Translations under genes and position numbers: made by a program
Notes under the pieces: generated by a model
The model's input: only the letters and a program-made list of their open reading frames with translations
Told to the model about the DNA's origin: nothing
Database searches by the model: none
In this document: positions 1,080 to 47,899 of the stretch, piece after piece
Numbering within the stretch: position 1 is the stretch's first letter
Layout: the number at the start of each line of letters is the position of its first letter
From: Sphingomonas donggukensis
Lineage (GTDB): Bacteria; Pseudomonadota; Alphaproteobacteria; Sphingomonadales; Sphingomonadaceae
Length of the DNA: 64,000 nt
Assembly: GCF_023674425.1 (NCBI RefSeq)
Contig: NZ_CP098401.1
Location: 2,170,001 to 2,234,000 of the forward strand
Reading direction: 5' to 3'

Positions 1080-2096
1080 TCACGGTTCGTAGATGCCGTT
1101 GCCAATTACCGGCGGCGGCACGGCGACCTCGGTCGCGCGTGCGGTGGGACGCGGCGTCGGGCGCGCGCGCGGCGTGGCGCGCGCCGTCGGGCTGGCGCGC
1201 GGCGTCGGCGTCGCAGCCGGAGTCGGGGCCGATGCCACCGTCGGCGCGGCTGTCGGCGCGGCGGCGGGCGCAGGCGTCGCCGGCGCAGGCGTCGCGGGCG
1301 CTGTCGTCCCCGCCCCAGCCGGCGCGCCGCGCGCCAGCAGCGCCTGTGCATCGACCGGTACGTCCTTGATCGCACGCTTGCCGTCGCCCAGCGGCGCGAC
1401 CGCGGCGCCGTTCACCATGATCGACAGCTTGTCGGGGCGCCCGACGTTGATCATCGGCCGGTTGGCATCGGACGGCACGTCATAGCGTTCGCCCGGCGCC
1501 ATCGTCTTCATCAAGAGCGTGGTGTCGGCGGCGTCGTAGATGCGCACCCACACCTCGTCGTTGGCGGTGATCGTCACCTGCGGCGGCGCGGCGGGTGAGG
1601 TGGTGCCGGGCGCCGGCACCGGCATCGCGACCTCGGCGACCGGCGCGGACGCCGTGCCGGATGGGGTGCCGCCGCGGAACAGGTTGGTGCCGTACCACAG
1701 GAAGACGCCCGCCAGCACCAGCAGCGCGACGACGATGCCGCCGACGACGAGGCCGCGCGACGGCACGCGGCTGTTGTCCTCGACCTCGTACACCGGCGCC
1801 GCCGTCGCCGGGCGATCCCAGTCGCTCGCGATCTCGCCGCGGATTTCGTTGGCGATGGCGACCTCGTCCAGCCCGACCGCGCGGGCATAGGCCTTGCCGA
1901 ATCCGACCGCATAGGTGGTCGAGGGCAGGCTGGCGTAATTGCCCGCCTCGATCGCCTCCAGGTGGCGCTGCGGGATGCGGGTGCGCTGCGCGATATCGGA
2001 GATTTCCAGCCGCTGCGCAGAGCGTGCGTCGCGCAGGCGCTCGCCCGGGCGCATCGGCACGCGGCTCGCGGTGTCGATCGTCTCGCTCTCGCTCAT
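1080..2096 (-). CDS. RodZ-like HTH membrane protein with C-terminal DUF4115
   Basis: 338 aa. An N-terminal Xre-type helix-turn-helix domain (GERLRDARSAQRLEISDIA, residues about 15-75) is followed by one membrane segment (about 118-138, VVGGIVVALLVLAGVFLWYG). A periplasmic beta domain of the DUF4115 kind comes next, then a Pro/Ala/Thr-rich C-terminal tail. This matches RodZ, which connects MreB to the elongation machinery. The ATG at 2096 is preceded by GGAG at good spacing, which fixes the start one codon inside the longest frame. The tail is low complexity and strongly GC-rich. Functional assignment is by architecture. Confidence 0.8.
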   Translation of the reverse strand: MSESETIDTASRVPMRPGERLRDARSAQRLEISDIAQRTRIPQRHLEAIEAGNYASLPSTTYAVGFGKAYARAVGLDEVAIANEIRGEIASDWDRPATAAPVYEVEDNSRVPSRGLVVGGIVVALLVLAGVFLWYGTNLFRGGTPSGTASAPVAEVAMPVPAPGTTSPAAPPQVTITANDEVWVRIYDAADTTLLMKTMAPGERYDVPSDANRPMINVGRPDKLSIMVNGAAVAPLGDGKRAIKDVPVDAQALLARGAPAGAGTTAPATPAPATPAPAAAPTAAPTVASAPTPAATPTPRASPTARATPRARPTPRPTARATEVAVPPPVIGNGIYEP

Positions 2097-2203
2097 CACC
2101 AGCTCCAGGGCGACCGGGAAAAGCCGCCGTTTCGCTCGTGTTCCATCCTCGACGCGCTACTGTCAACGACTTGCGCGGACCCGTGCATCATCCGATCGCG
2201 CGA

Positions 2204-4480
2204 TCAGTCCAGTTCGACCCCGTGATCGCCCGCCCAGCCGCCCAGCGCCGCGCGCATGTCGGCGGGCGGCGCGGCCAGCAATTCCGCCATCGTCGCGGTG
2301 ATCGCCCCGCGGTCGAGGCTGCGCACCATCGCCTTGATCGGGCCGACAGCGGCGGGGGTGATCGACAGGCGGTCGATGCCGATGCCGATCAGCGCCATCG
2401 CTTCCAATGGCCGCCCGCCCATCTCACCGCACACCGCGACCGGCACCCCCGCCGCGCTGCACGCCTTCGCCACCCGCGCGACGAAGCGCAGGATCGCCGG
2501 GCTGAGCCAGTCGTAGCGTACCGCGAGCTTCGGGTGCGCGCGGTCGGCGGCGAACAGGAACTGGGTCAGATCGTTGGTGCCGATCGACAGGAAATCGAGC
2601 TTCGGCAGCAGGATGTCGAGCACCTCGGCCAGCGCCGGCACCTCCAGCATAGCGCCGTAGCGAACGTCGATCGGCAGCTTCTTGCCACGCGCGGCCAGCC
2701 AGGCACGCTGCGCCTCGAAGATCGCCTTCGCTTCGTCGAACTCCCACGGCTCGCTCACCATCGGGAACATGACGTTCAGCGTGCGCCCCGCCGCCGCCTC
2801 GATCAGCGCGCGCGCCTGAGCCTTCATCAACCCGCCGCGGTCGAGCGCCAGGCGCAGCGCGCGCCAGCCCATCGCCGGGTTCTCCTCCTGCTCGTCCTCG
2901 TCATGGTCGAGGTAGGGGAGCGCCTTGTCCCCGCCGATATCGACCGTGCGGAACACGACCGGGCGGTCGCCCGCCGAATCGAGCACGTCGCGGTACAATC
3001 GCTGCTGACGCTCGCGCGCGGGCATGGTGGCGGACACCAGGAACTGGAATTCGGTCCGGAACAGGCCGATGCCGTCGGCCCCGGTCAGCTCCAGCGCGGC
3101 GACGTCGTCGCGCAGCCCGGCGTTGACCATCACGGTCACGCGGTGATCGTCCTTCGTGACCGGCGGCAGCGGCTTCATCGCGGCGAAGGCGGCGCGGCGC
3201 TTCTGGCTCAGCACCAGCTTCGCCTCGAACGCTTCCTCCATCGCCTGGGTCGGGCGGACGAACACCTGCTCCGACGTGACGTCGAGCAGCAGCATGTCGC
3301 CTTCCGCCACCTCGCGCTTGATGCCCTTGGCACGGCCCAGCACCGGTACGCCCATCGCCCGCGCGACGATGATGACGTGCGCGGTCAGCGACCCTTCCTC
3401 CAGCACGACGCCCTTCAGCCGGCGGCGGTCGTACTCCAGCAGTTCGGCGGGCCCCAGGTTCTTGGCGATCAGGATCGAATCCTCGCGCAGGCCCATCTGC
3501 GCCGCGGTGCCCAGACGCCCCGAAACCGTGCGGATCAGCCGGTTCGACAGATCCTCCAGGTCGTGCATGCGTTCGCGCAGCAAGGGATCGTCGATCTCGC
3601 GCATTCTCATGCGGGTTCGCTGCTGCACGCGCTCGATCGCGGCCTCAGCGGTCAGGCCGCTGTCGATCGCCTCATTGATGCGCCGCGACCAGCCCTCGTC
3701 GTAGGCGAACATCTTGTACATCGCGAGCACCTCTTCGTGCTCGCCGCCGCCACCGAACTCGGCCTGCGCCTGCATCCGCTCGATCTGGTCCCGCATCTTG
3801 TCGAACGCGGTGTACACCCGCCGCCGCTCCGCCTCGGTGTCCTCGGCGACGGTGTGTTCGATGTGGATGCGGGGTTGGTGATACACGGCGACGCCCGCGC
3901 CCATGCCGTCGACCAGCTTGAACCCCTGGATCCGCGCGGTCGCGGTCGACTGGACGCGGATCGTGCCGCTTGCCGCACTGTCGATCAGGCCGGCGTTGGC
4001 GATCAGCTCGCTGAGCACCATCGCCACCGTCTGCAGCGCCTCGATCTCGACTTCGTCGTAGCGGCGCGGCTCGACATGCTGCACGGCGAGCACGCCGACC
4101 GCGCGTTCGCGGCGAATGATCGGCACGCCTGCAAAGCTGTGGAACCGGTCCTCGCCGGTTTCCGGACGGTACGCGAAGTCGGGATGCGACGCCGCTTCGT
4201 CGAGGTTCAGCGTCTCGACGTTCTGCGCGATCGTCCCGACCAGCCCCTCGCCCAGCGCCAGCGTGGTGACGTGCACCGCCGCCTGGTCGAGGCCGTGGGT
4301 CGCGTAGAGCTCCAGCACGCCCTCGCGCAGCAGGTAGATCGACGCGACTTCGCTCGTCAGGCCGTCGGCGACGATCTCGGTCACCGCGTTCAGTTTCGCC
4401 TGCGCGTTGGTCCGCGACGCCATCACGTCGTGGAGGCGGACGAGGATCTCGCGGGCGGAGGCGGCGGCGGTCAGCGGCAT
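2204..4480 (-). CDS. ptsP: PtsP: nitrogen-type PTS enzyme I (PEP-protein phosphotransferase with GAF domain)
   Basis: 758 aa, close to the 748 aa of E. coli PtsP. An N-terminal GAF domain (about 1-160) carries the NVETLNLDEAASHPDF-type core. The PEP-utiliser domains follow, with the phospho-accepting histidine in GSLTAHVIIVARAMGVPVLG and the PEP-binding barrel (GADGIGLFRTEFQFL, ending near CGEMGG and SIGTNDLTQF). It takes phosphate from PEP and passes it to NPr and EIIA-Ntr, a regulatory chain for nitrogen, potassium and carbon status rather than sugar uptake. It sits upstream of the rodZ-like gene on the same strand with a gap of about 107 bp. Confidence 0.95.
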   Translation of the reverse strand: MPLTAAASAREILVRLHDVMASRTNAQAKLNAVTEIVADGLTSEVASIYLLREGVLELYATHGLDQAAVHVTTLALGEGLVGTIAQNVETLNLDEAASHPDFAYRPETGEDRFHSFAGVPIIRRERAVGVLAVQHVEPRRYDEVEIEALQTVAMVLSELIANAGLIDSAASGTIRVQSTATARIQGFKLVDGMGAGVAVYHQPRIHIEHTVAEDTEAERRRVYTAFDKMRDQIERMQAQAEFGGGGEHEEVLAMYKMFAYDEGWSRRINEAIDSGLTAEAAIERVQQRTRMRMREIDDPLLRERMHDLEDLSNRLIRTVSGRLGTAAQMGLREDSILIAKNLGPAELLEYDRRRLKGVVLEEGSLTAHVIIVARAMGVPVLGRAKGIKREVAEGDMLLLDVTSEQVFVRPTQAMEEAFEAKLVLSQKRRAAFAAMKPLPPVTKDDHRVTVMVNAGLRDDVAALELTGADGIGLFRTEFQFLVSATMPARERQQRLYRDVLDSAGDRPVVFRTVDIGGDKALPYLDHDEDEQEENPAMGWRALRLALDRGGLMKAQARALIEAAAGRTLNVMFPMVSEPWEFDEAKAIFEAQRAWLAARGKKLPIDVRYGAMLEVPALAEVLDILLPKLDFLSIGTNDLTQFLFAADRAHPKLAVRYDWLSPAILRFVARVAKACSAAGVPVAVCGEMGGRPLEAMALIGIGIDRLSITPAAVGPIKAMVRSLDRGAITATMAELLAAPPADMRAALGGWAGDHGVELD

Positions 4481-4535
4481 GCATGCCGGGCTATCAGATC
4501 GCGCGCCGCCTTGCGAGCGGTTCGGACGACGCGGT

Positions 4536-5246
4536 TCAGCGTTGCATCGCGACCGTCATCGCCGTCGCCACCGGGCCGACCGGCACCACGCTCGCCACCG
4601 CGACCTGCGGCTGCCCGCGCGTGCGCCACTGCGCCGCCGCGACCTGATAGCGGGCATAGCTGTCGTAGAAGGCGGTAAACGGCGCTTGGAGCCGCGCTAG
4701 CGCTGCCGCGGCCATCGCCTGATACGCCTCGGGCGTTGCCGCCACCGCTTCGGCCAGCACCACGTCCGCCTCGGCGCAGAATGCCGCCTGCGACGTCGGC
4801 TGCGCAAAGAAATTGTAGAGCCGCGTCATCGCACCGTCGTGCTGCGGCTGCCATGCGTCGGCGTAGCGGGCGCGATATTCGGCGCGCAGCGTAACCTCGG
4901 CGGTGGTCAGCAACTCGCGCTTGCCCGCCAGCAGCGCGTTATAGGCCGCGATCCGCTGTGCATCCTGTGCGCCCCGGCAGCCGAGCGCTGCGACGTTCAG
5001 CGCCGCTCGCAGATGCCAAGCCGCTGCCGCCGGCGTTAGGTCGCGGTTGGGCGTCGCCCAGTGCCCGGTGGCATCGCGCTCGGGCAGGCGCAGCGTCGCC
5101 GCGGCCCCGGCGGGCGGGGTCGGCGCCACCAGCGGCGCCTCCAGCCCTTCCTCGGTCGGATAATAGTCGCCGGTCGCCTGCGCCGACGCGCCGTGCGCAA
5201 GCAGACCCATGGCCGCAGCCGCGGCGTACCCAAGAACCCTTTTCAT
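4536..5246 (-). CDS. secreted protein of unknown function
   Basis: 236 aa with a clear signal peptide (MKRVLGYAAAAAMGLLAHGASAQA, cleaved after ASA). The mature part is mostly alpha-helical and alanine-rich, with two cysteines (CRGAQDAQ near residue 95 and FCAEADVV near 157) that could form a disulfide. No catalytic motif was recognised. It lies upstream of ptsP on the same strand with a 55-bp gap and could be cotranscribed. I do not recognise the family; it looks like a conserved periplasmic hypothetical of sphingomonads. Confidence 0.7.
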   Translation of the reverse strand: MKRVLGYAAAAAMGLLAHGASAQATGDYYPTEEGLEAPLVAPTPPAGAAATLRLPERDATGHWATPNRDLTPAAAAWHLRAALNVAALGCRGAQDAQRIAAYNALLAGKRELLTTAEVTLRAEYRARYADAWQPQHDGAMTRLYNFFAQPTSQAAFCAEADVVLAEAVAATPEAYQAMAAAALARLQAPFTAFYDSYARYQVAAAQWRTRGQPQVAVASVVPVGPVATAMTVAMQR

Positions 5247-17584: not shown

Positions 17585-17589
17585 TCCTC
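17585..17589. repeat. target site duplication, left copy (TCCTC)
   Basis: TCCTC immediately before the first base of the transposon. The same five bases follow its last base at 47895-47899. A 5-bp duplication is the hallmark of Tn7-like and related DDE transposition. Confidence 0.9.
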
Positions 17590-17637
17590 TATCCCTTGCC
17601 CAATAGACTTTGCCCGATGGGACAAAGTCGCTGCCCG
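17590..17637 (+). repeat. transposon left end with TnsB-type binding sites
   Basis: Three TGCCC-centred units: TTGCCC at 17596-17601, GACTTTGCCCGATG at 17606-17619, and GACAAAGTCGCTGCCCG at 17621-17637. GACTTTG (17606-17612) and CAAAGTC (17623-17629) also form a small palindrome. GACTTTGCCCG is identical to the outermost site at the right end. Confidence 0.8.
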
Positions 17638-38452: not shown

Positions 38453-39193
38453 ATGAGAATGAAAATGCCTTCCGGCGAGATATCACGGATCAGCCCCGAC
38501 AAACGTTCGGAGGTGCTCCGTCGGGCTGAGATCGTGCGGCGCTATTGCGCGATCAAAAGCCCGACCGAAGAGGACGACCGAAACTTCGCGGCCGAGTTGG
38601 GCTTGTCAACCGACAGCCTCTTCCGGCTCGCCGCCGCCTGGCGTCGTCATGGCGACATCGACGCCCTGCAGGGCGCGCGCGTGCGCTTAACTGACACTGA
38701 CAGGACACTCGCGTTGGAAGTGGCGCGAGGCGAGCTCGACATGTCCGGTGTGACCCCGTCGCGGAGAGCGGAAACGCTCCGTCGCATCGACGTCATCCGT
38801 CGCTACTTGGAGATCCCAACCCCATCTCGCGCCGATCGATTAGCGTCGGCGAAGGCGATGGACCTGACGCCTGAACGTTTCACGAGGGTTCTCCGTGCCT
38901 GGCTGTTACACAGGTCACCAGAGGCGATCCCTGGGGCCACGGTGCCTCGCCGCCAATGGCGGAAGAAATTGAAGAAGCGCGAGAGGCTTCAGCAGCTCCT
39001 CGATCTGGCAATCACCAGCGCAGGGGCCAGCGCCAGCGTCGTGCGCATTCGCGAGCTATTCGAAGAGTATTGCCGTGATGACGGGCTGGAGCCGCCTTCG
39101 CAGGGCACAATCTACAAATGGGTTCGGCAGCTTCGGTCGAAATCGGCTCAATCATCGCTTGAGACCGCAAAATCGCCTTTTAGCGGGGCATAG
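38453..39193 (+). CDS. multi-HTH protein related to TnsB/Mu-type DNA-binding domains
   Basis: About 246 aa; the start is uncertain (ATGs at 38453, 38459 and 38465, all with poor ribosome sites). Two tandem helix-turn-helix units share a pattern: RRAEIVRRYCAI...LGLSTDSLFRLAAAWRRHGD and RRIDVIRRYLEI...MDLTPERFTRVLRAWLLH. A third, VRIRELFEEYCRD...SQGTIYKWVRQLR, ends the protein. These resemble the DNA-binding parts of TnsB/Mu-family transposases, but no RNase-H catalytic domain follows. Its 3' end overlaps the converging integrase-like gene by 46 bp. It is likely a transposon-borne DNA-binding protein; its role in targeting or regulation is unknown. Confidence 0.65.
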   Translation: MRMKMPSGEISRISPDKRSEVLRRAEIVRRYCAIKSPTEEDDRNFAAELGLSTDSLFRLAAAWRRHGDIDALQGARVRLTDTDRTLALEVARGELDMSGVTPSRRAETLRRIDVIRRYLEIPTPSRADRLASAKAMDLTPERFTRVLRAWLLHRSPEAIPGATVPRRQWRKKLKKRERLQQLLDLAITSAGASASVVRIRELFEEYCRDDGLEPPSQGTIYKWVRQLRSKSAQSSLETAKSPFSGA

Positions 39194-40350
39194 AGAGGGA
39201 GGTCATACATCAGCGGTTCGAGTTCGACCAATTCGCGCAGGCGCGAAAGCACTCGCTTAAGTGCTGCTCCTTGATCCTCCGGTCGCGCCGCCCCAGCCGC
39301 CAACCCCAATCGTTTCGCGTTGTGCGCCTCGATCGCATCTTCGATCATCCACAGATTCGAGACATCCAACGAAGGTAGAGCCGCCTCTCGTCCAGTCCGA
39401 TAACTGACGTTACCCTCGCGCTTACCAACGCCGAGCCATATGCGGCCCAGCCTGTTGCCGAGATTTCGAATTACAGCGCGGCCATAGTGGCGTTCTGACG
39501 TCGAACTTGGTGGGGCGGCAATCTGCATTCGTTGCGCGATAAGCGCTCTCCCCTCGGTATCATCAGGATCGAATCGAATATCCATCTCAGGCCCGTCGGC
39601 GCAGACGTCCAGGTGATCGATATCCAGTTCAGCGACGCCGCCGAGTGCATCCTCAGCGGCGTGGATCGCACCTAAGGCCAATGACCTGTCCGTAGCCACG
39701 GAAGCGCCCAGCACCACACCCGTGCCTTCGTCGATCACAGCGTAGAGCCTCAGGCGCAGACCCTCGGGATCGAGCAGGTCCAAACCAGCGCTGTCGATTA
39801 TGATCTTACACCCGAAGCGCCCCGGCGGGGACTCTCGGCGGGCGGCTTCGATCAGTTTGATCAGTGTCGCAGGGGAGGGCATCTCACCGCCCTCTGCCAA
39901 CATCATGGTTCGAATTGCCCCGGCGCTCAGGCCATGGTTCTCGTTGGTGAGCGCCAACGCCCGCTGCTTGATCCGATCACGCTGAGAGTCGCTGATACCG
40001 GACGCGCGATTGAGGGAGTCCGCCGCATGAATTCCAAGCGAAGCTAGGTGGGGCGACTCCTTCCAAGCCGCCAGCAATCCGTAAAGGCGTGAGGGCTGCA
40101 CGCCTGCGATTGCCGCAGCGTCCTTTACGCTCGCTATCCCCGCCTCGGCAGTCACCGGCGCCGTGATCGCCAAGATTGCCTTCAACCGCTGCGCCAACCG
40201 TAGGCGCTTCTCGGGCGACAGGCTCGCGAGAACGAGTTCGTCTTGCCTAGGCAGTCCGTCCGGCCACACCCGCAATAGCAGGTCATCCAATTCCGAACCG
40301 ACCGACTTCATTAGCTTTCCAATTTCTGCGTCCACTTCGTGGACGCACAT
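39148..40350 (-). CDS. integrase-fold protein resembling TnsB but apparently catalytically dead
   Basis: 400 aa from the ATG at 40350 (GGAAGAG nine nt upstream; a TTG at 40398 is weaker). HTH units (SVKDAAAIAGVQPSRLYGLL and GLSAGAIRTMMLAEGG) precede an RNase-H-like core: CKIIIDSAGLDLL (D1), LYAVIDEGTGVVLGASVA, then LDVCADGPEMDIRF (D2). Where the third acid should be (GxVER in the family) it reads HYGRAVIRNLGNRLGR, with Ile in place of Glu. The frame is open and well formed, so this is a maintained protein rather than a relic. It is divergent from tnsA and convergent with the multi-HTH gene. Possible roles: regulator, end-binding accessory or immunity factor. Confidence 0.65.
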   Translation of the reverse strand: MCVHEVDAEIGKLMKSVGSELDDLLLRVWPDGLPRQDELVLASLSPEKRLRLAQRLKAILAITAPVTAEAGIASVKDAAAIAGVQPSRLYGLLAAWKESPHLASLGIHAADSLNRASGISDSQRDRIKQRALALTNENHGLSAGAIRTMMLAEGGEMPSPATLIKLIEAARRESPPGRFGCKIIIDSAGLDLLDPEGLRLRLYAVIDEGTGVVLGASVATDRSLALGAIHAAEDALGGVAELDIDHLDVCADGPEMDIRFDPDDTEGRALIAQRMQIAAPPSSTSERHYGRAVIRNLGNRLGRIWLGVGKREGNVSYRTGREAALPSLDVSNLWMIEDAIEAHNAKRLGLAAGAARPEDQGAALKRVLSRLRELVELEPLMYDLPLYAPLKGDFAVSSDD

Positions 40351-40391
40351 ACAGCATCGCTCTTCCAGTTCCACTAAAATGATAAAACCGT

Positions 40392-40420
40392 TTGACAATG
40401 ACCATACGCACCACCATTAT
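40392..40420 (+). promoter_or_regulatory. strong candidate promoter for the tns operon
   Basis: TTGACA (40392-40397), a 17-bp spacer, CATTAT (40415-40420), in an A+T-rich patch. Transcription would start near 40427, just before the leader ORF and tnsA. It is the best sigma70-type match I noticed in the element. Confidence 0.65.
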
Positions 40421-40449
40421 CAGTCACACAAATGTTGTAAGGAAGTTTG

Positions 40450-40596
40450 ATGCTTCGGTTTAGGTTTCTGACTTCGGGTTTCTGGCGGCTTGCGCCGAAG
40501 GTCGGACCGGCCCTACCGCCCCGTTCGGCCAGTAGGCTTCAGTGCCGTGATCGACGGGACGCTGGTTACCATTGCCGCAGCCGGGTCTGTCACTGA
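40450..40596 (+). CDS. 48-codon leader ORF coupled to tnsA
   Basis: The ATG at 40450 has AAGGAAG five nt upstream, one of the better ribosome sites in the tns region. The 48-aa product is basic and aromatic-rich at the start (MLRFRFLTSGFWRLAPK) and Arg/Cys-rich at the end. Its stop overlaps the tnsA ATG as TGATG, the classic arrangement for translational coupling. tnsA has no ribosome site of its own, so this ORF may exist to control tnsA translation. Confidence 0.5.
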   Translation: MLRFRFLTSGFWRLAPKVGPALPPRSASRLQCRDRRDAGYHCRSRVCH

Positions 40597-41467
40597 TGGG
40601 TTTCGTCGCAACCCACTGGCGTGCCACAAAAGTCCGGGCTGAGCTGGGTGACCGCGTGCTCCCCGTGGTCGGGACTCCGGTTTCGCAGGTCGTAATGCGC
40701 TCGCCGCGTCCCGATCATTTCCACGATCCCGAGGAACCCGCGCTGCGCAGCAGGATCCGGAAGATCGTTCGCGACGCCGACATCGACGGTGACAAGCTCG
40801 TCCCGATGGCGACCATGTTCCGCGCCGAAGGGGGCGGTCCGTTGCGAACTTTCAACGGCGGCTTGGCCCATGAGAATGGCTGGATCCCGAGCCGCAAGGC
40901 GCGTCGGCTCCTCCATTGGGAAGGCGAAGCGCAGAGGGCGTTGGTCGTGCGCTGCGAGAGCGACTTCGCCGTCGATCAGGTCGCAACAGAAAGCGTAGGC
41001 CTTACGATCCCTTTCGTGGTGGCTTCGTCGACTATACCACCGACGTTGAGACCGTCGGCCCCGACGGAGCGACAACGCTGTGGGAAGTGAAGCGCGACGA
41101 GCGAGACTTAGCGGACCCCGACTTCCGCCTCCTCCTCGCCATGGTCGCCGAAATCCTCCGTCGTTGCGACATCGGCTTCGGCGTCATCTTCCGTGACGAG
41201 ATCTTCCAGGACCGCATTCATCGCGCGAATGCAGAACTGTTCGCCGCCCGGGCTTTTGCAACGGTGGAGCTGAAACATCTCCACCGCTTGGAGAACCATT
41301 TCATCGGCAACGGTCCAATTTCGACGCTCGGCGCTCTCGCTGAAGCACTTGAGCCTACCTCGACCAACGCCGGCCGCGCGCTGGTTCAGGCCCTGACCAT
41401 CCGCCGCCGGGTCGAGATCGATCTCACCCAGCGGATCGGTCCCCACACGCCGCTTACGATCTACTGA
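40596..41467 (+). CDS. tnsA: TnsA-like endonuclease, split by a -1 frame change
   Basis: Read with one -1 shift at 41009-41015, the product is about 290 aa, near the 273 aa of Tn7 TnsA. The first frame carries GWIPSRKARRLLHWEGEAQRAL (an acidic active-site residue within WEGEAQ), then ESDFAVDQVATES. The second frame supplies YTTDVE and LWEVKRDERD, matching the catalytic Asp and Lys of TnsA-type nucleases, and a winged-helix-like C-terminus. TnsA cuts the 5' strands at the transposon ends to give cut-and-paste movement. Without the shift the first frame stops at 41090 and lacks the Asp and Lys. It is either programmed frameshifting, a mutation or a sequence error. Confidence 0.7.
41009..41041 (+). 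promoter_or_regulatory. putative -1 ribosomal frameshift signal in tnsA
   Basis: C CCT TTC (41009-41015) is an X XXY YYZ heptamer in phase with the upstream frame. After a -1 slip both tRNAs re-pair as CCC and TTT. A stem GGTGG (41018-41022) / CCACC (41037-41041) follows after 2 nt. The spacing is shorter than the usual 5-8 nt and the stem is short, so the stimulator is questionable. Confidence 0.5.
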
Positions 41468-41780: not shown

Positions 41781-42023
41781 ATGACTTTCTACAGAATCGC
41801 CCCCGGTGCCGTTAGCGAGCCTGACGGGTTGCTGAGCCCCACTCCCCAAAACAGCGTCGGGCGACTGCCCACCAAATCGGCCCGCCGTCGCTCGAACGAT
41901 ACGCGGCGGCGGCACTTCGACAGGCGCCTCGACGGCAGGATGGTGGAAGACGCCTTCCTGATTGAAGCCGGCCGCGCATGGCTCGACGCTTACTTTCCAA
42001 CCGACCGCGTCCCGAGCGCCTAG
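41781..42023 (+). CDS. small ORF between tnsA and tnsB (80 aa)
   Basis: CGGAG precedes the ATG by six nt. The product is basic in the middle (SARRRSNDTRRRHFDRRL) with an acidic/aromatic end (EDAFLIEAGRAWLDAYFPTD). No family recognised. It is placed in the tns operon, 80 bp before tnsB, so it may be a small accessory protein of transposition. Confidence 0.45.
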   Translation: MTFYRIAPGAVSEPDGLLSPTPQNSVGRLPTKSARRRSNDTRRRHFDRRLDGRMVEDAFLIEAGRAWLDAYFPTDRVPSA

Positions 42024-42103
42024 CGCGGACCAGCGCCCGGCACGCTCTCAGCACGCACCGTGCTCCCCCTCGCGACCTCGCTCGATCCCATCAAGGAGTA
42101 ACC

Positions 42104-44320
42104 ATGAGTTACAACAAGTTTGCGCCCGGCACGCTCATCTACATCGACGGCGCGGAGTTCCGAGCGGAAGGCTACAGCAAGGGCCGCATCGGCCTCATCA
42201 ATACCGTGACCGGTGCCAGCTACCTGTGCCGCGACAAGGACGGAGAGTTCGGCCTGCTCACCGACGACGAGTTCGACAGCTTGCTCGAAGGCGGTCGGCT
42301 TAAGATCGTTAGCCCCCGCACCACCGATCGCGTTCGCCTTCAAAATGAGGTGTCGCAAATCTCCCTCGCGCAGGCGAGCAAGGCGGATCCCGGCATCGAG
42401 AAGATGATCGAGCAGTGCCGTCTGCTTGACGATTTGGGCGTACCCAATGGCGACAAAGCGATCCTGCGGGCCCTGGCGAAACGGTGGGACGCGGAAATGA
42501 TCGCAAAGCACGGTCCGCACGACCCGCCGCGCACGATCCGGTATTGGCGCAGCAAGCGAGGGCGCCCGGGGAACCGGCATCCCCGCGACATGGTGAGGCT
42601 CAACCGCGTCGCGGTTGCGCGGCGTTCACCCAACAACGCAAACCGCCAAGTGCTCTGGAAGCATGCGATCGAGGGGTGGACCGTCAAGGCGCTGCCCAAG
42701 CATGTCCACGCTTCCTACGCGGCAGAGATTCGCCAGATCAACGAGGGCCGGCACCCGCTCTTTCCAAAGCCTGAAGAACCTTACAAGACCGTTTCCCAGC
42801 GCACGGTCCGCCGCGCATACGATTGGCTCGAATCCAGCGCCACTGTGGCCACGAAGGATGGCAAGGCGGCCGTCGAGCAGGACTGGAGGGGGGCCGGCCG
42901 CTCGCTCACCGCCGATTTCGCCTTCCACAGGGTCATCATCGACCACACCCGGCTCAACGCGTTCGCCGTCGACGACGAATTCGAGATCGTGCTCGGCCGT
43001 CCGTGGCTGACCTTGGCAATCGACGTGCGGACGCGCGCCATCGTCGCCTCGCTGATCAGCTTCACGTCGCCATGCTCTTGGACGGTCGGTGAGATCCTGC
43101 GCCGGATGGCTCTCCCCAAGCGCCCTCCGTCCGAGATGGCGGAGCGATACCCGGTCCTTCGAAAGATTCGAGGCAAGCCGACGGAGATCGTCGTCGACAA
43201 CGCGGCGGAGTTCCGCAGCCATACGATGGAGGCCGCAGCGCGGGGCGCCGGCATCGGCGTTCGCTTCTGCCCGATCAAGGCTCCACGCTACCGTGCTGTT
43301 GGCGAGCGCGCCATGGGCACCATCAACCGCGAGATTTGCGGCCTGCTCCCCGGCCGGGTGCTTCCCCCGCACGACGCGCGCCGATTCTCCCACAATCCCG
43401 AGGACGAGGCCTGCGTTTTGATGCGTGACCTCGAGGCCGTCGCGAACATGGCGATCGCAATCTACCATACCGAGCCCCACTCCGGCATCGGCGACCGCCA
43501 ACCCGCTCTCATGATCGAACATGAGATGAACAGGCACGGCATCACCAACTTCGCAGACCTCGACTCCTTTCGCATCGACACGATGAAGATCGCGGAGGAC
43601 GCGCAGGTAACGCCGAGCGGCATACGTGCGTTCGGCATGCGGTATCACAACATCCTGGCGGTGCCGTCATTGCTCGACGACCTCGTGCCGCTGGAAGGCC
43701 GCCGACAGCGACGCGACGATTCCACGGCGACCGTCGATTTCCGCTACGATCCGATGGATATCGGCCGCATCCATGTTTGGAACCGTCGAAGCCGAAAGTT
43801 CGTCGAGCTCACGTGCTCGGACGAGCGGTATGCCGATGGGATGCCCGAATGGTTCCACATGCAAATCGGGGCCAAGGCTAAGCAGGACAAAGAGGCCTTC
43901 AATACGGAGGACGAGCGTCTGGCCGCCAGATCCCGAATGATCCAGGCTATCCGCGACATCAGTCTAACCGCAAAGAAGAAGTCCCGCGAGAACCTGGCCA
44001 GGCTGCTGGAAATCCGGCACCACCGCGAGATCGTCGGCAACATCGTCGAGCTGAGCACGATCGAGCCGGAACCCGTTTCGATCGACGAATTCATCGCATG
44101 CGACCGCGCCGCCCTGACGTCGCTCGACCAGGAGATCCTCTCCAGCAGGCCGGTGGCCAGGGAGCGGAAGTCCCACGCGAACATGCGCGGACGCCATGCC
44201 GAACGTGAGGCCCGGGACCCCCGCGACGCCGGTCAGCCCCGCCCCGAGCCGACGCCCCCCGAGCCCGGCCAAGCCCGGCGCCGTCCCCGTGTCAAAGCCG
44301 CACGAGGAGGTTTCGAATGA
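42104..44320 (+). CDS. tnsB: TnsB-like DDE transposase
   Basis: 738 aa from the ATG at 42104 (AAGGAG upstream). The rve-type catalytic core has D280 (VIIDHTRLNAF), D365 (EIVVDNAAEFRS) and E401 (YRAVGERAMGTINRE), with 35 residues between the last two, so it is complete. N-terminal HTH domains (about 90-250) bind the end repeats, and the C-terminal tail (Pro/Arg-rich after about 700) should contact TnsC. TnsB joins the 3' ends to the target. Its stop overlaps the tnsC start (ATGA). Confidence 0.93.
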   Translation: MSYNKFAPGTLIYIDGAEFRAEGYSKGRIGLINTVTGASYLCRDKDGEFGLLTDDEFDSLLEGGRLKIVSPRTTDRVRLQNEVSQISLAQASKADPGIEKMIEQCRLLDDLGVPNGDKAILRALAKRWDAEMIAKHGPHDPPRTIRYWRSKRGRPGNRHPRDMVRLNRVAVARRSPNNANRQVLWKHAIEGWTVKALPKHVHASYAAEIRQINEGRHPLFPKPEEPYKTVSQRTVRRAYDWLESSATVATKDGKAAVEQDWRGAGRSLTADFAFHRVIIDHTRLNAFAVDDEFEIVLGRPWLTLAIDVRTRAIVASLISFTSPCSWTVGEILRRMALPKRPPSEMAERYPVLRKIRGKPTEIVVDNAAEFRSHTMEAAARGAGIGVRFCPIKAPRYRAVGERAMGTINREICGLLPGRVLPPHDARRFSHNPEDEACVLMRDLEAVANMAIAIYHTEPHSGIGDRQPALMIEHEMNRHGITNFADLDSFRIDTMKIAEDAQVTPSGIRAFGMRYHNILAVPSLLDDLVPLEGRRQRRDDSTATVDFRYDPMDIGRIHVWNRRSRKFVELTCSDERYADGMPEWFHMQIGAKAKQDKEAFNTEDERLAARSRMIQAIRDISLTAKKKSRENLARLLEIRHHREIVGNIVELSTIEPEPVSIDEFIACDRAALTSLDQEILSSRPVARERKSHANMRGRHAEREARDPRDAGQPRPEPTPPEPGQARRRPRVKAARGGFE

Positions 44321-45222
44321 CTGAGAAAGCCAGTGAGAGGGCCGCGCGCATCGGCGCGGCCCGAGCCGAGTTCGACGGCATCGTCGTCGACTATCCGCCC
44401 ACGACCGCCGCAATCGAGACGATCGAGGAGCTGCGCGTCGCGACGCGGCTGCGCCCCGCCAGCACGCCTTGTGGCGGGATCCTGCTCAACGCCCCCATCG
44501 GCACCGGCAAAACCTCGACGGTGCGGCAGGCGGCTACCTATGCCGCAAGCACCGCCCCCGAGGGGAACACGCCGATCCTGCTCGTGGAAATGCCCACGGC
44601 CGGATCGACCGACTCGGTGCCGTCCGCCATCCTTGGGGCATTGGGCCACGCCCGCCCGGACCTCGGCAAGCCGGCGGCGCGGTGGCTCCGCGCTGTCGCG
44701 GATATGCGAGCCCGGGGCGTCGAGATCCTCGTCTTTGACGAGTTCAATCGCGCCAATCGCCGCCCCACGATGAGCCGACCGATCGCCACCAGCATCCGCG
44801 AGCACATCATGGATGCCGGTGTCGCCGCCGTGGTCTTCGTCGGAACCGCCGACGCAGCCGTTGTCCTCGACCAGTGCCCCGAGTTGCTCGACCGCCTCGA
44901 GGGCGAGATCGACCTCAGCCCGCTCGAATGGTGCGATGAGGAAGACCGCGAGCTCTTCACGGATTTCGTAAAGGACATCGATCAGGCACTGGTCGACAAG
45001 CGACTCCTGGATGAACACTCCGGCCTAGGGAAGGCGAAGGTCGCACAACGGCTGTGCGAGGCGTCGAGAGGCCGGCTGCGCCCCCTCATGCGGATCGTGC
45101 GGGGAGCTATGGCAATCGCGATGAAACGGGACGGCACCTCGATCAGCGTGGCTGATCTCCACGACGCCACTGAGGACTACGCAAAGCGCTTCCGCATGAT
45201 CGAACGGAACCCTTTCGCATGA
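44317..45222 (+). CDS. tnsC: TnsC/TniB-like AAA+ ATPase
   Basis: 301 aa. Walker A is APIGTGKTS (residues about 59-67) and Walker B EILVFDEFNRANRR (about 136-149); a sensor region VVFVGTADAAVV follows. It links the target selector (TniQ) to the transposase and is regulated by ATP. The length is closer to TniB-type TnsC than to the 555-aa TnsC of Tn7. It overlaps tnsB and tniQ by 4 bp each, so the three are tightly coupled. Confidence 0.93.
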   Translation: MTEKASERAARIGAARAEFDGIVVDYPPTTAAIETIEELRVATRLRPASTPCGGILLNAPIGTGKTSTVRQAATYAASTAPEGNTPILLVEMPTAGSTDSVPSAILGALGHARPDLGKPAARWLRAVADMRARGVEILVFDEFNRANRRPTMSRPIATSIREHIMDAGVAAVVFVGTADAAVVLDQCPELLDRLEGEIDLSPLEWCDEEDRELFTDFVKDIDQALVDKRLLDEHSGLGKAKVAQRLCEASRGRLRPLMRIVRGAMAIAMKRDGTSISVADLHDATEDYAKRFRMIERNPFA

Positions 45223-47099
45223 GCGTCGTCGACCAGATGCCGCCGAAGGCGCCTTGGCGCGTCAGCACCGTCCGCCCGCCCCTGCCGGGCGAGTCGGCGG
45301 ATGGGCTCGTCGCCCGCGTGGCGGCCGGCGAGTTCGCCAACCGCACGTTCGAGATCACTTCCATGGCTGGCGCGGATTTCACCCATCGCGCTGCAGTCTC
45401 GCGGCAAGACGCACGCGGCATCTCTATTGTCGCTGATTGCCTCCGCGTCGATCCTGAGGATTTAGCGCAACGCTGTGCCGTGGTGCAGGGCGGACCCCAA
45501 CGGACCCGACGAAATGCGTTCTTCGGAACGTCGATCGACGCGCTTCACGTGGTGACGACGGTGCGTCGGTTCGCGCCCGCTTCACTCGTCATTTCTGAAC
45601 ACCACCGCGCGCTGTGGATGCTTCGCCCACTTCCGTTCTGTGAGGAGACCTGGCAGTTCTTGGCGCAGAATTGCCCGAATCCGCATTGCGGCTTTACCCA
45701 ACGCTGGCAGCTCACCAACGGGGTTGGCCTCTGTGATTCCTGCGGAGAACCTCTCACGCGCGCCCAAGCCGAAGTCGTGCCGCATGCCCTGCGCACGAAC
45801 CTGGGCCACGCCGTTGGCCTCGTGCATCCGGATCCGGAGCGTCGCAGCCAATCACTGGGGCTGCTTCCCCCAGAGATCTCCAAGTTGCCACTCGGAAATC
45901 TGTTCGACCTAATGTGCGCCTTGGCTGGCGTGTTCGATCCGGAAGTGCGTTTTAAGAGCTCGAGGCGCGCAATAGACCCTAACGCCCCTCATCCACTTGT
46001 CGCGGCGGCGATGGCGGGCGCCTGGTCCGTGCTGTCTACATGGCCTGAAGGTTTCGAGCGGCTTGCCGGGGACCGCCTTGCAACGCGGGTTGGAAGATTC
46101 GGAGACGGTAATTCTGGAGCTACCCTCGACTTCTTGCTCACACCCTCGCGCACCAAACTCGCGCCGGACGTGGCAAGTGTCATTGAGCAGATGCGGGAGC
46201 GGCTCAGCGGCAATGCCACTGACGGCTATCACGTTCGTGTCGCAGCCGCCCGCACCGGCAGCACCGCTAGCGCAATGGCCGCCGCCCGACGGCGCGGCGA
46301 AGTGCCCACGGTGTTCCACCTGAATGGCCGCAGAGTGTTGCCCCTGATCGAGCGCACTGCAATCGATGCTATGACTTCGATGGTTCGGACTCCGCACCGG
46401 TATGCAGCCGCGCATCTCGGCGTCACCTTTCGTGCCGTGGAGGAGTTGATCCTCTGCGGCCTGCTTGAAGCGGGCGGACAACCGCTCAGTCGCTCAACCA
46501 TGGAGACTGTGACGCAGGCGTCGTTGAAGAGGCTGACGGACGATATCCGAGGCGCGGCTGGCCCCGCGCGGAAAGACGCCATTCCGATGCGGCATGCGAT
46601 GCGGAGCGTGGGTGGCCGCCTCAAGCCCTGGGCCGCTGCCATTCAAGCGATGCTCGCTGGCTCGCTGAAGTTTCAAATGGACGACACCGAAGGTCCGCTG
46701 ATGAATCGAGTTGCGGTGCCGCCCGACTATGTGAACCTTATCATCAGCTTGGCCGATATTGCCGATGACGCCGCTCGGCCGTTCGCAACGATGATGTCGA
46801 AGGGCGACGCCGCAGACGCGCTCAACCTTATGCCGCGTCAATACGAGACGGTGCTTCAAAAATGGCCTTCTTCGAATGGGTGGGAACGCACCGTTCCCGT
46901 GGCTGCCGTCGAAAACATGCTTCGAATTTTCGCGTCGGCCTCAGAAATCGCCCATCGGCTCAGCATTCCAGCCGCCGCAGTCCGCCGCCGGATGAGGGAA
47001 CAGGGCGTAGCTCGCTTGTCGGACGCGGGTTATGACCGCGCAGCTTTCGATGCGATCTATGGACCTCGGCTCGGCAGCACTTCTAAAACAGACGACTAG
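45219..47099 (+). CDS. tniQ: TniQ/TnsD-family target selector
   Basis: 626 aa. The TniQ opening PPLPGESADGLVARVA is near residue 22. A zinc finger with CPNPHC and CDSC lies near 152-175, and several HTH-like stretches follow, including MASASEIAHRLSIPAAAVRRRM-type helices at the C-terminus. It is longer than the minimal TniQ of CRISPR-linked elements and nearer to TnsD-type selectors, which fits sequence-specific targeting of a fixed site. The natural candidate target is the tRNA-Gln gene 7 bp from the left end. No second TniQ is present. Confidence 0.9.
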   Translation: MSVVDQMPPKAPWRVSTVRPPLPGESADGLVARVAAGEFANRTFEITSMAGADFTHRAAVSRQDARGISIVADCLRVDPEDLAQRCAVVQGGPQRTRRNAFFGTSIDALHVVTTVRRFAPASLVISEHHRALWMLRPLPFCEETWQFLAQNCPNPHCGFTQRWQLTNGVGLCDSCGEPLTRAQAEVVPHALRTNLGHAVGLVHPDPERRSQSLGLLPPEISKLPLGNLFDLMCALAGVFDPEVRFKSSRRAIDPNAPHPLVAAAMAGAWSVLSTWPEGFERLAGDRLATRVGRFGDGNSGATLDFLLTPSRTKLAPDVASVIEQMRERLSGNATDGYHVRVAAARTGSTASAMAAARRRGEVPTVFHLNGRRVLPLIERTAIDAMTSMVRTPHRYAAAHLGVTFRAVEELILCGLLEAGGQPLSRSTMETVTQASLKRLTDDIRGAAGPARKDAIPMRHAMRSVGGRLKPWAAAIQAMLAGSLKFQMDDTEGPLMNRVAVPPDYVNLIISLADIADDAARPFATMMSKGDAADALNLMPRQYETVLQKWPSSNGWERTVPVAAVENMLRIFASASEIAHRLSIPAAAVRRRMREQGVARLSDAGYDRAAFDAIYGPRLGSTSKTDD

Positions 47100-47780: not shown

Positions 47781-47894
47781 TCGGGCAATGACCTGTCCAA
47801 AAAGCGCGAGTTCGGGCAATGTCTTTGGCATCGGGCAACCTCCCCCTTTTGTCACTACGAGGGGACTGCGGGCAAAGTCTCCTGACAAGGGACA
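47781..47894 (-). repeat. transposon right end with four TnsB-type binding sites
   Basis: Four copies of CGGGCAA(A/T/C): 47782-47792 (CGGGCAATGAC), 47813-47823 (CGGGCAATGTC), 47832-47842 (CGGGCAACCTC) and 47869-47879 (CGGGCAAAGTC), all in one orientation, with starts 31, 19 and 37 bp apart. The end itself reads TGTCCCTTGTCA on the minus strand. Against three units at the left end this gives the asymmetric ends typical of Tn7-like elements. Confidence 0.85.
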
Positions 47895-47899
47895 TCCTC
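47895..47899. repeat. target site duplication, right copy (TCCTC)
   Basis: Exact match to the 5 bp at 17585-17589, immediately after the last base of the transposon. Joining the two flanks would restore the tRNA-Gln to S41-peptidase junction. Confidence 0.9.

Follow-up and report, generated by a model that had tools for sequence, protein, structure and literature searches.

Paired catalytically dead DDE integrases beside the tns operon as a candidate exchangeable regulator of Tn7-like elements

The repressor c of phage Mu has its DNA-binding architecture in common with transposases of the Mu/TnsB type and is not known to contain an integrase core, and in phage immunity regions the repressor and its operators are exchanged together. 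How CRISPR-free Tn7-like transposons control their own expression is, to our knowledge, poorly known. In Tn7-like CAST elements, proteins of the MerR, Arc or Xre class have been recruited to regulate the transposition genes (PMC9938897, PMC11406308). The MerR protein CvkR of type V-K CAST is a transposon-encoded repressor that acts directly on the cas12k and tnsB promoters (PMC9938897), and the Xre proteins RtaC/RtbC of type I-F3 CAST control transposition, with zygotic induction (PMC11406308). TnsF of Tn6022 is a catalytically dead tyrosine recombinase that serves as target selector and is operonic with a short TniQ (PMC10293859). The survey of Tn7 target selectors sought partners among genes operonized with tniQ (PMC10293859), an approach that would miss the convergent pair P1/P2 described here.

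P1 and P2 are located in the window, the whole stretch of 64,000 nucleotides that was analyzed, which belongs to a genome of 2.9 Mb in a single contig. The surrounding element is Tn7-like in that tnsA-tnsB-tnsC-tniQ are found together and related ends and a 5-bp duplication are present at a specific site. It spans 17590-47894 (30,305 bp), is flanked on both sides by the 5-bp duplication (TSD) TCCTC and starts 8 bp beyond the 3' end of a tRNA-Gln gene. Its terminal sequences are related, the left end reading TATCCCTTG..AGACTTTGCCCG from 17590 and the right end, inverted, TGTCCCTTG..AGACTTTGCCCG at 47894. From left to right the element contains defense-type cargo, P1, P2, tnsA, tnsB, tnsC and tniQ, with the following features:

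17590-17616, plus strand: left (cargo) end, TATCCCTTGCCCAATAGACTTTGCCCG, with the TSD TCCTC just before it at 17585-17589
38453-39193, plus strand: P1, 246 aa, two tandem HTH units and a winged HTH, no integrase core in the window copy
39148-40398, minus strand: P2, HTH, winged HTH and RNase-H-like integrase core, no Mu_C domain
40351-40571, no strand: divergent P2-tnsA intergenic region, with repeats (putative operators) in relatives and none significant in the window
40392-40420, plus strand: sigma70-like match TTGACA-17-CATTAT (10/12) directed towards tnsA, a consensus match only
40572-41467, plus strand: tnsA, frame interrupted near 40.98 kb (N part 40572-41090, C part 40916-41467)
41978-44320, plus strand: tnsB, DDE transposase with full DDE triad, alternative start at 42104 possible
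44317-45222, plus strand: tnsC (TniB/AAA)
45219-47099, plus strand: tniQ, 626 aa, TnsD-like size
47869-47894, minus strand: right (tniQ) end, TGTCCCTTGTCAGGAGACTTTGCCCG on that strand, with the TSD TCCTC just after it at 47895-47899

Several features of the elements themselves were recorded in passing. Unlike the split tnsA of the window, loci L019, L025, L027 and L030 have a single open tnsA frame; the window element may be immobile in its strain, or the break may be a sequencing error. The cargo between 22733 and 37042 is rich in defense functions (PLD-SNF2 helicase, type IIG restriction-modification, short Argonaute with a DUF4365 partner) and also includes a CBASS cyclase with a 2TM-SAVED effector. 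The tRNA-site layout of the window element was repeated in genomes G061, G010 and G329 and more weakly in G580, and in all of these, with the same reservation for G580, the side facing the tRNA gene was the cargo end and not the tns end. Elements of the group lie 7-17 bp past the 3' ends of differing tRNA genes (Gln, Cys, Arg), while the G227 element is found at the 3' end of a gene that, judged by eye, resembles ung. No convincing element end was found at the tRNA-Phe gene near the pair-less element of G399. TnsB was split over two adjoining genes in four loci (L020:11585-13983, L021:5883-8281, L086 and L087), with 492 + 307 aa and an ATGA overlap in L020, and possibly represents a naturally split transposase in these cases.

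Both frames, their convergent arrangement beside tnsA and the 46-bp overlap of their 3' ends were confirmed as set out in a preliminary description of the locus. P2 comprises 416 aa if read from the TTG at 40398 or 400 aa from the ATG at 40350, the latter being the likelier start. Neither P1 nor P2 matched Pfam or NCBIfam at useful scores. The TnsB-like HTH units that both proteins had been proposed to have in common were borne out by the P2 profile, which matched two stretches of the P1 frame (E 5e-12 and 8e-9), and by the two family profiles, which aligned end to end over 286 columns (hhalign 99.7%, E 6e-26). The RNase-H-like core with Ile in place of the catalytic Glu, also part of that description, held up as well: the P2 family gave a 313-column alignment with active transposases of the TniA type from the same bacterial family (hhalign 99.4%, E 5e-21), whose own profile matched TnsB proteins of solved structure (E as low as 3e-67), and aligned with the profile of resident TnsB at E 1.3e-6. 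The motif HYGGHIER, which contains the catalytic Glu of the TniA-type enzymes, stands opposite HYGRAVIR of P2 in the profile alignment, so that the position of this Glu is occupied by Ile310. Throughout the P2 family the Glu was absent (0/25) and the second Asp variable in a combined alignment that contained the full DDE triad in 23/23 neighboring TnsB and 13/13 other active transposases; in the P1 family the first Asp was found in 8/22 and the Glu in 1/22 members. The first catalytic Asp of P2 (D202 in the window) is invariant (25/25) even though the Glu is always missing, leaving a half-kept active site. None of 14 P2-family members matched the Mu-transpos_C domain, P2 stopping shortly past the core. 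Since AlphaFold2 on P2 alone from the single sequence was uninformative (pLDDT 36), the RNase-H fold assigned to P2 rests on sequence profiles. The view that only the 400-aa protein has such a core applies to the window and fails for most relatives, in which P1 is 310-360 aa long and extends into a degenerate integrase core. P1 is short in the window and in L017, its nearest pair relative, and the window P1 has lost its integrase core.

The pair is not confined to this one element; a check of other Tn7-like elements, as the preliminary description had proposed, found it at 25 further loci and identified it as a recurrent module in its bacterial family. P2 relatives were present in 14 further genomes among the 401 of the family that were searched, and a profile search of 301 genomes of the order added more. 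A class-wide search yielded no P2 relative outside the family at family-level scores, and none were found with three P2 queries in plasmid records (tblastn) or in a viral collection. One candidate from the contig search (L001) was rejected as a chance match of 28 residues in an unrelated context, while the strong matches all adjoined tnsABC-tniQ. Altogether 26 loci from one bacterial family (the window and 25 others) contain both P1 and P2 immediately upstream of tnsA-tnsB-tnsC-tniQ. In the window and 24 of the 25 others the order is P1 forward, P2 reversed and divergent from tnsA, followed by tnsA, tnsB, tnsC and tniQ, all forward; L094 is the exception, with P1 and P2 both on the other strand. 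L102 carries a P1-type gene only. TniQ measures 569-656 aa and is TnsD-sized in 25 of the 26 loci. The pair is under purifying selection, with dN/dS ranging from 0.08 to 0.29 (0.08 for P2 and 0.12 for P1 between L018 and L020), and these values, together with its retention beside tnsABC-tniQ in the 25 further loci, uphold the earlier argument for a kept function. Antisense control by the overlapping 3' ends, likewise suggested earlier, was dropped because the overlap is not conserved and ranges from -46 to +1137 bp among 12 loci.

A search with TnsB showed that L133 (TnsB 54% identical), L135 and L137 carry related TnsABC-TniQ with no detected pair, and the pair is therefore usual but not indispensable; L134 and L136 from the same search terminate at contig ends. 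In L133, the slot upstream of tnsA (1309-4657) is occupied by genes for a serine recombinase and two ParB-like proteins. In four loci (L019:3323-3685, L029:4407-5225, L090:8774-9478 and L094:7557-8222), short additional ORFs that resemble a portion of TnsB were observed near P1, P2 or tnsA, the L029 copy resembling the N-terminal region of TnsB. L026 (6150-9282) contains a second P1 and a P2 remnant next to an intact pair, probably left behind by a second element or by an exchange of cassettes.

The ancestry and inheritance of the pair differ from those of the transposition genes. In a tree built by a quick method P2 formed one clade (95%) and TnsB another (98%), and a 100% branch parted P1/P2 from the resident TnsB together with the active TniA-type transposases. 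The pair is thus not descended from resident TnsB, in disagreement with the derivation from TnsB suggested at the outset, and the simplest account would be that P1 and P2 stem from a duplication predating the sampled diversity. In a comparison of 23 loci, pairwise distances for P1 were correlated with those for P2 (rho 0.66), as were the distances for TnsA, TnsB, TnsC and TniQ with each other (rho 0.59-0.76), in contrast to the distances between the two groups (rho -0.09 to 0.11; no significant Mantel test among the pairs tested), with values of -0.01 and -0.09 for TniQ, 0.03-0.04 for TnsC and 0.04-0.11 for TnsB. This co-variation of P1 and P2 with each other and not with TnsA, TnsB, TnsC or TniQ shows that they are exchanged as a cassette. 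L018 and L020 are 74% identical in P1 and 79% in P2 as compared to 18% in TnsB, whereas L084 and L085, two elements of one genome, are 70% identical in TnsB and 24-26% in P1/P2. The ends of L018 and L020 also differ (TGTTGGTTCAACC versus TATCAGATTGCACC), as do their targets (tRNA-Arg versus tRNA-Cys). Near-alike pairs in elements that are unlike in ends, TnsB and target make end binding, matching to TnsB and choice of the tRNA target unlikely, and the target-immunity role with end binding once considered for the pair was given up on these grounds, the putative operator motifs described below not being found at the ends either. The G329:C1 and G061:C1 elements (L018/L020 with L152-L155), which have unrelated transposases, contain 11.5 kb of cargo in common at 93.6% DNA identity, which is a sign of recent cargo exchange.

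L018 and L020 are homologous at the DNA level across P1, P2 and the region between P2 and tnsA, and this homology tapers off once the first start codon of the tns operon is reached. The DNA upstream of P2 was alike where the pairs were alike in four comparisons (z 37, 12.4, 11.7 and 7.3), in one of which TnsB was also alike. Loci with similar TnsB and an unrelated pair exhibited upstream similarity in 1 of 13 comparisons. Joint travel of promoter DNA and pair applies to the closer cases only, since 8 of the 11 comparisons between similar pairs with unrelated TnsB were without clear upstream similarity (z <4); several loci among these eight hold strong repeats of their own. An upstream similarity between the window and L093 (z 7.8) was discounted because it looks like a match in GC-rich composition.

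The P2-tnsA intergenic regions also contain direct repeats of 15-23 bp each, spaced 19-64 bp apart, such as TTCTACATGCCAATGC/TTCTAAATGCCAACGC in L018 and L020 and AAACCCACTACAGCC, which occurs twice in L017. Direct repeats with z>3 were present upstream of P2 in 9 of 25 loci versus 4 of 98 control intergenic regions (Fisher 6e-5); elsewhere they were found in 11 of 300 random windows, in 0/17 regions upstream of P1 and, for relatives in which no pair was detected, in 0/4 regions upstream of tnsA. In some groups of loci the repeats are linked to the type of pair. L089 and L030 have inverted repeats in place of direct ones. TnsB-type HTH proteins read directly repeated asymmetric sites. The repeat motifs were not found elsewhere in the eight 60-kb regions searched, ends included, and words common to the element ends and the P2-tnsA region occurred at chance level only. 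In the window, direct and inverted repeats of this region were not significant (z 0.2 and -0.5), nor were gapped ones. Sigma70-like matches across all loci showed no excess, with 2/25 versus 1.6 expected from shuffles.

The promoter DNA traveling with the pair in the closest cases and the excess of repeats at that place favor a transcriptional regulator, and a regulatory module beside tnsA, one of the roles envisaged in the preliminary description, is the best-supported reading. With a probability of roughly 0.58, we consider P1/P2 to be a regulator pair that arose from a dead duplicated DDE transposase, is carried with its own operators and holds the tns operon down. The pattern of inheritance and the adjoining DNA suggest a swappable switch that would time the expression of the transposon genes, most likely by repressing the tns operon rather than activating it. 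An old, catalytically dead DDE transposase would have been duplicated to give P1 and P2, both retaining the HTH domains that read the sites and, in most cases, a dead RNase-H core after loss of the catalytic Glu and the C-terminal domains, and this core perhaps serves the pairing of P1 with P2 in a presumed complex. The pair and its binding sites in the P2-tnsA intergenic region would move as one cassette. By binding the repeats around the tns promoter, P1/P2 may keep the tnsABC-tniQ operon, and probably P2 as well, repressed in an established host, while entry of the element into a regulator-free cell would lead to a burst of transposition (zygotic induction). This mechanism is drawn from the relatives, as the window itself is without a significant repeat, and the repeats could instead be used by a different regulator moving along with the cassette. 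The window copy may be decaying, given the missing repeat, the lost P1 core and the broken tnsA frame. More tentatively, at well below even odds, the two paralogous dead DDE integrases and their operators would form a phage-like immunity region that is swapped between elements with unrelated transposases and decides on their coexistence and the timing of their jumps (heteroimmunity, zygotic induction).

Instead of regulating transcription, P1/P2 might constitute a second target-selection pathway by reading a target (e.g. plasmid or replication-linked DNA) and passing it to TnsC/TniQ as TnsE/TnsF do, with the large TniQ covering the chromosomal tRNA site. Modular exchange and a TnsD-sized TniQ would fit such a role, and many Tn7-like elements couple TniQ with a separate selector, including TnsF (PMC10293859). 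We regard it as unlikely, however, since near-identical pairs accompany different chromosomal targets (tRNA-Arg versus tRNA-Cys), the three P2 queries matched no plasmid record, the pair does not co-vary with TniQ or TnsC and is without the C-terminal region found beyond the core of active transposases, and the promoter repeats would be left unexplained. A cargo-like defense or competition module, which might for example block rival TniA-type or Tn7-like elements and leave its own element unregulated, could account for an exchange resembling that of cargo in an element that holds several defense systems, and for profiles that put P1/P2 closer to TniA-type transposases than to resident TnsB. 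The tree, on the other hand, sets P1/P2 outside both groups, the pair, unlike cargo, occupies a constant slot at the tns promoter, mostly in a constant orientation, in the 26 loci, and neither the repeats there nor the co-traveling tnsA promoter region of the closest cases would be explained, which renders this role quite improbable.

TnsB complexes include non-catalytic protomers, and P1/P2 could be structural or dominant-negative partners of TnsB that replace or block such subunits on the transposon ends. TnsB-type HTH units and a dead RNase-H core without C-terminal domains are what would be expected of a poisoned subunit; such a role is nonetheless very unlikely, since elements with 74-79% identical pairs have 18% identical TnsB and unrelated ends, the pair shows no distance correlation with TnsB, and the putative operator motifs are not at the ends. 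Long frames arisen by chance, or a former transposase in decay, to which the dead catalytic residues, the broken tnsA and the lost P1 core of the window might point, are scarcely credible in view of purifying selection (dN/dS 0.08-0.29), one ancient P2 clade (95%) and 26 loci, and are already refuted for the family of the pair as a whole.

If the regulator reading is true, transposases have been turned into dedicated regulators with operators of their own, and the control region of the elements is modular, as is the immunity region of a temperate phage. It would further provide testable rules for the coexistence of elements, a natural means of switching Tn7-type machinery on and off and, in the many combinations of HTH and operator, a resource for studying DNA recognition by TnsB-type domains. 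The literature searched, which mostly did not extend to subscription papers, contained no description of paired dead DDE integrases in a regulatory role. As far as these searches reach, both the class of protein and the exchangeable module are new, the proposed function itself being of a known kind.

Compared with described systems, P2 has the HTH, winged HTH and RNase-H-like core of the TniA/TnsB DDE transposases (TniA-type of the same bacterial family, TnsB of Tn7 and CAST), but differs from them by the absence of the catalytic Glu (25/25) and of the Mu_C domain and by its separate clade. The pair may be likened to Mu repressor c and the phage immunity regions, and differs from Mu c in the integrase core, which the latter is not known to have. 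Similar to TnsF, P1/P2 are accessory proteins of Tn7-like elements made from a dead recombinase; in contrast to TnsF, they are of the DDE type, not operonic with tniQ and uncoupled from the target. Unlike CvkR and the Arc and Xre regulators, P1/P2 are two paralogous dead integrases with direct-repeat sites in elements in which no CRISPR genes were noticed, while like CvkR, the Arc-type regulators and RtaC/RtbC they are proposed to act on the tns promoter.
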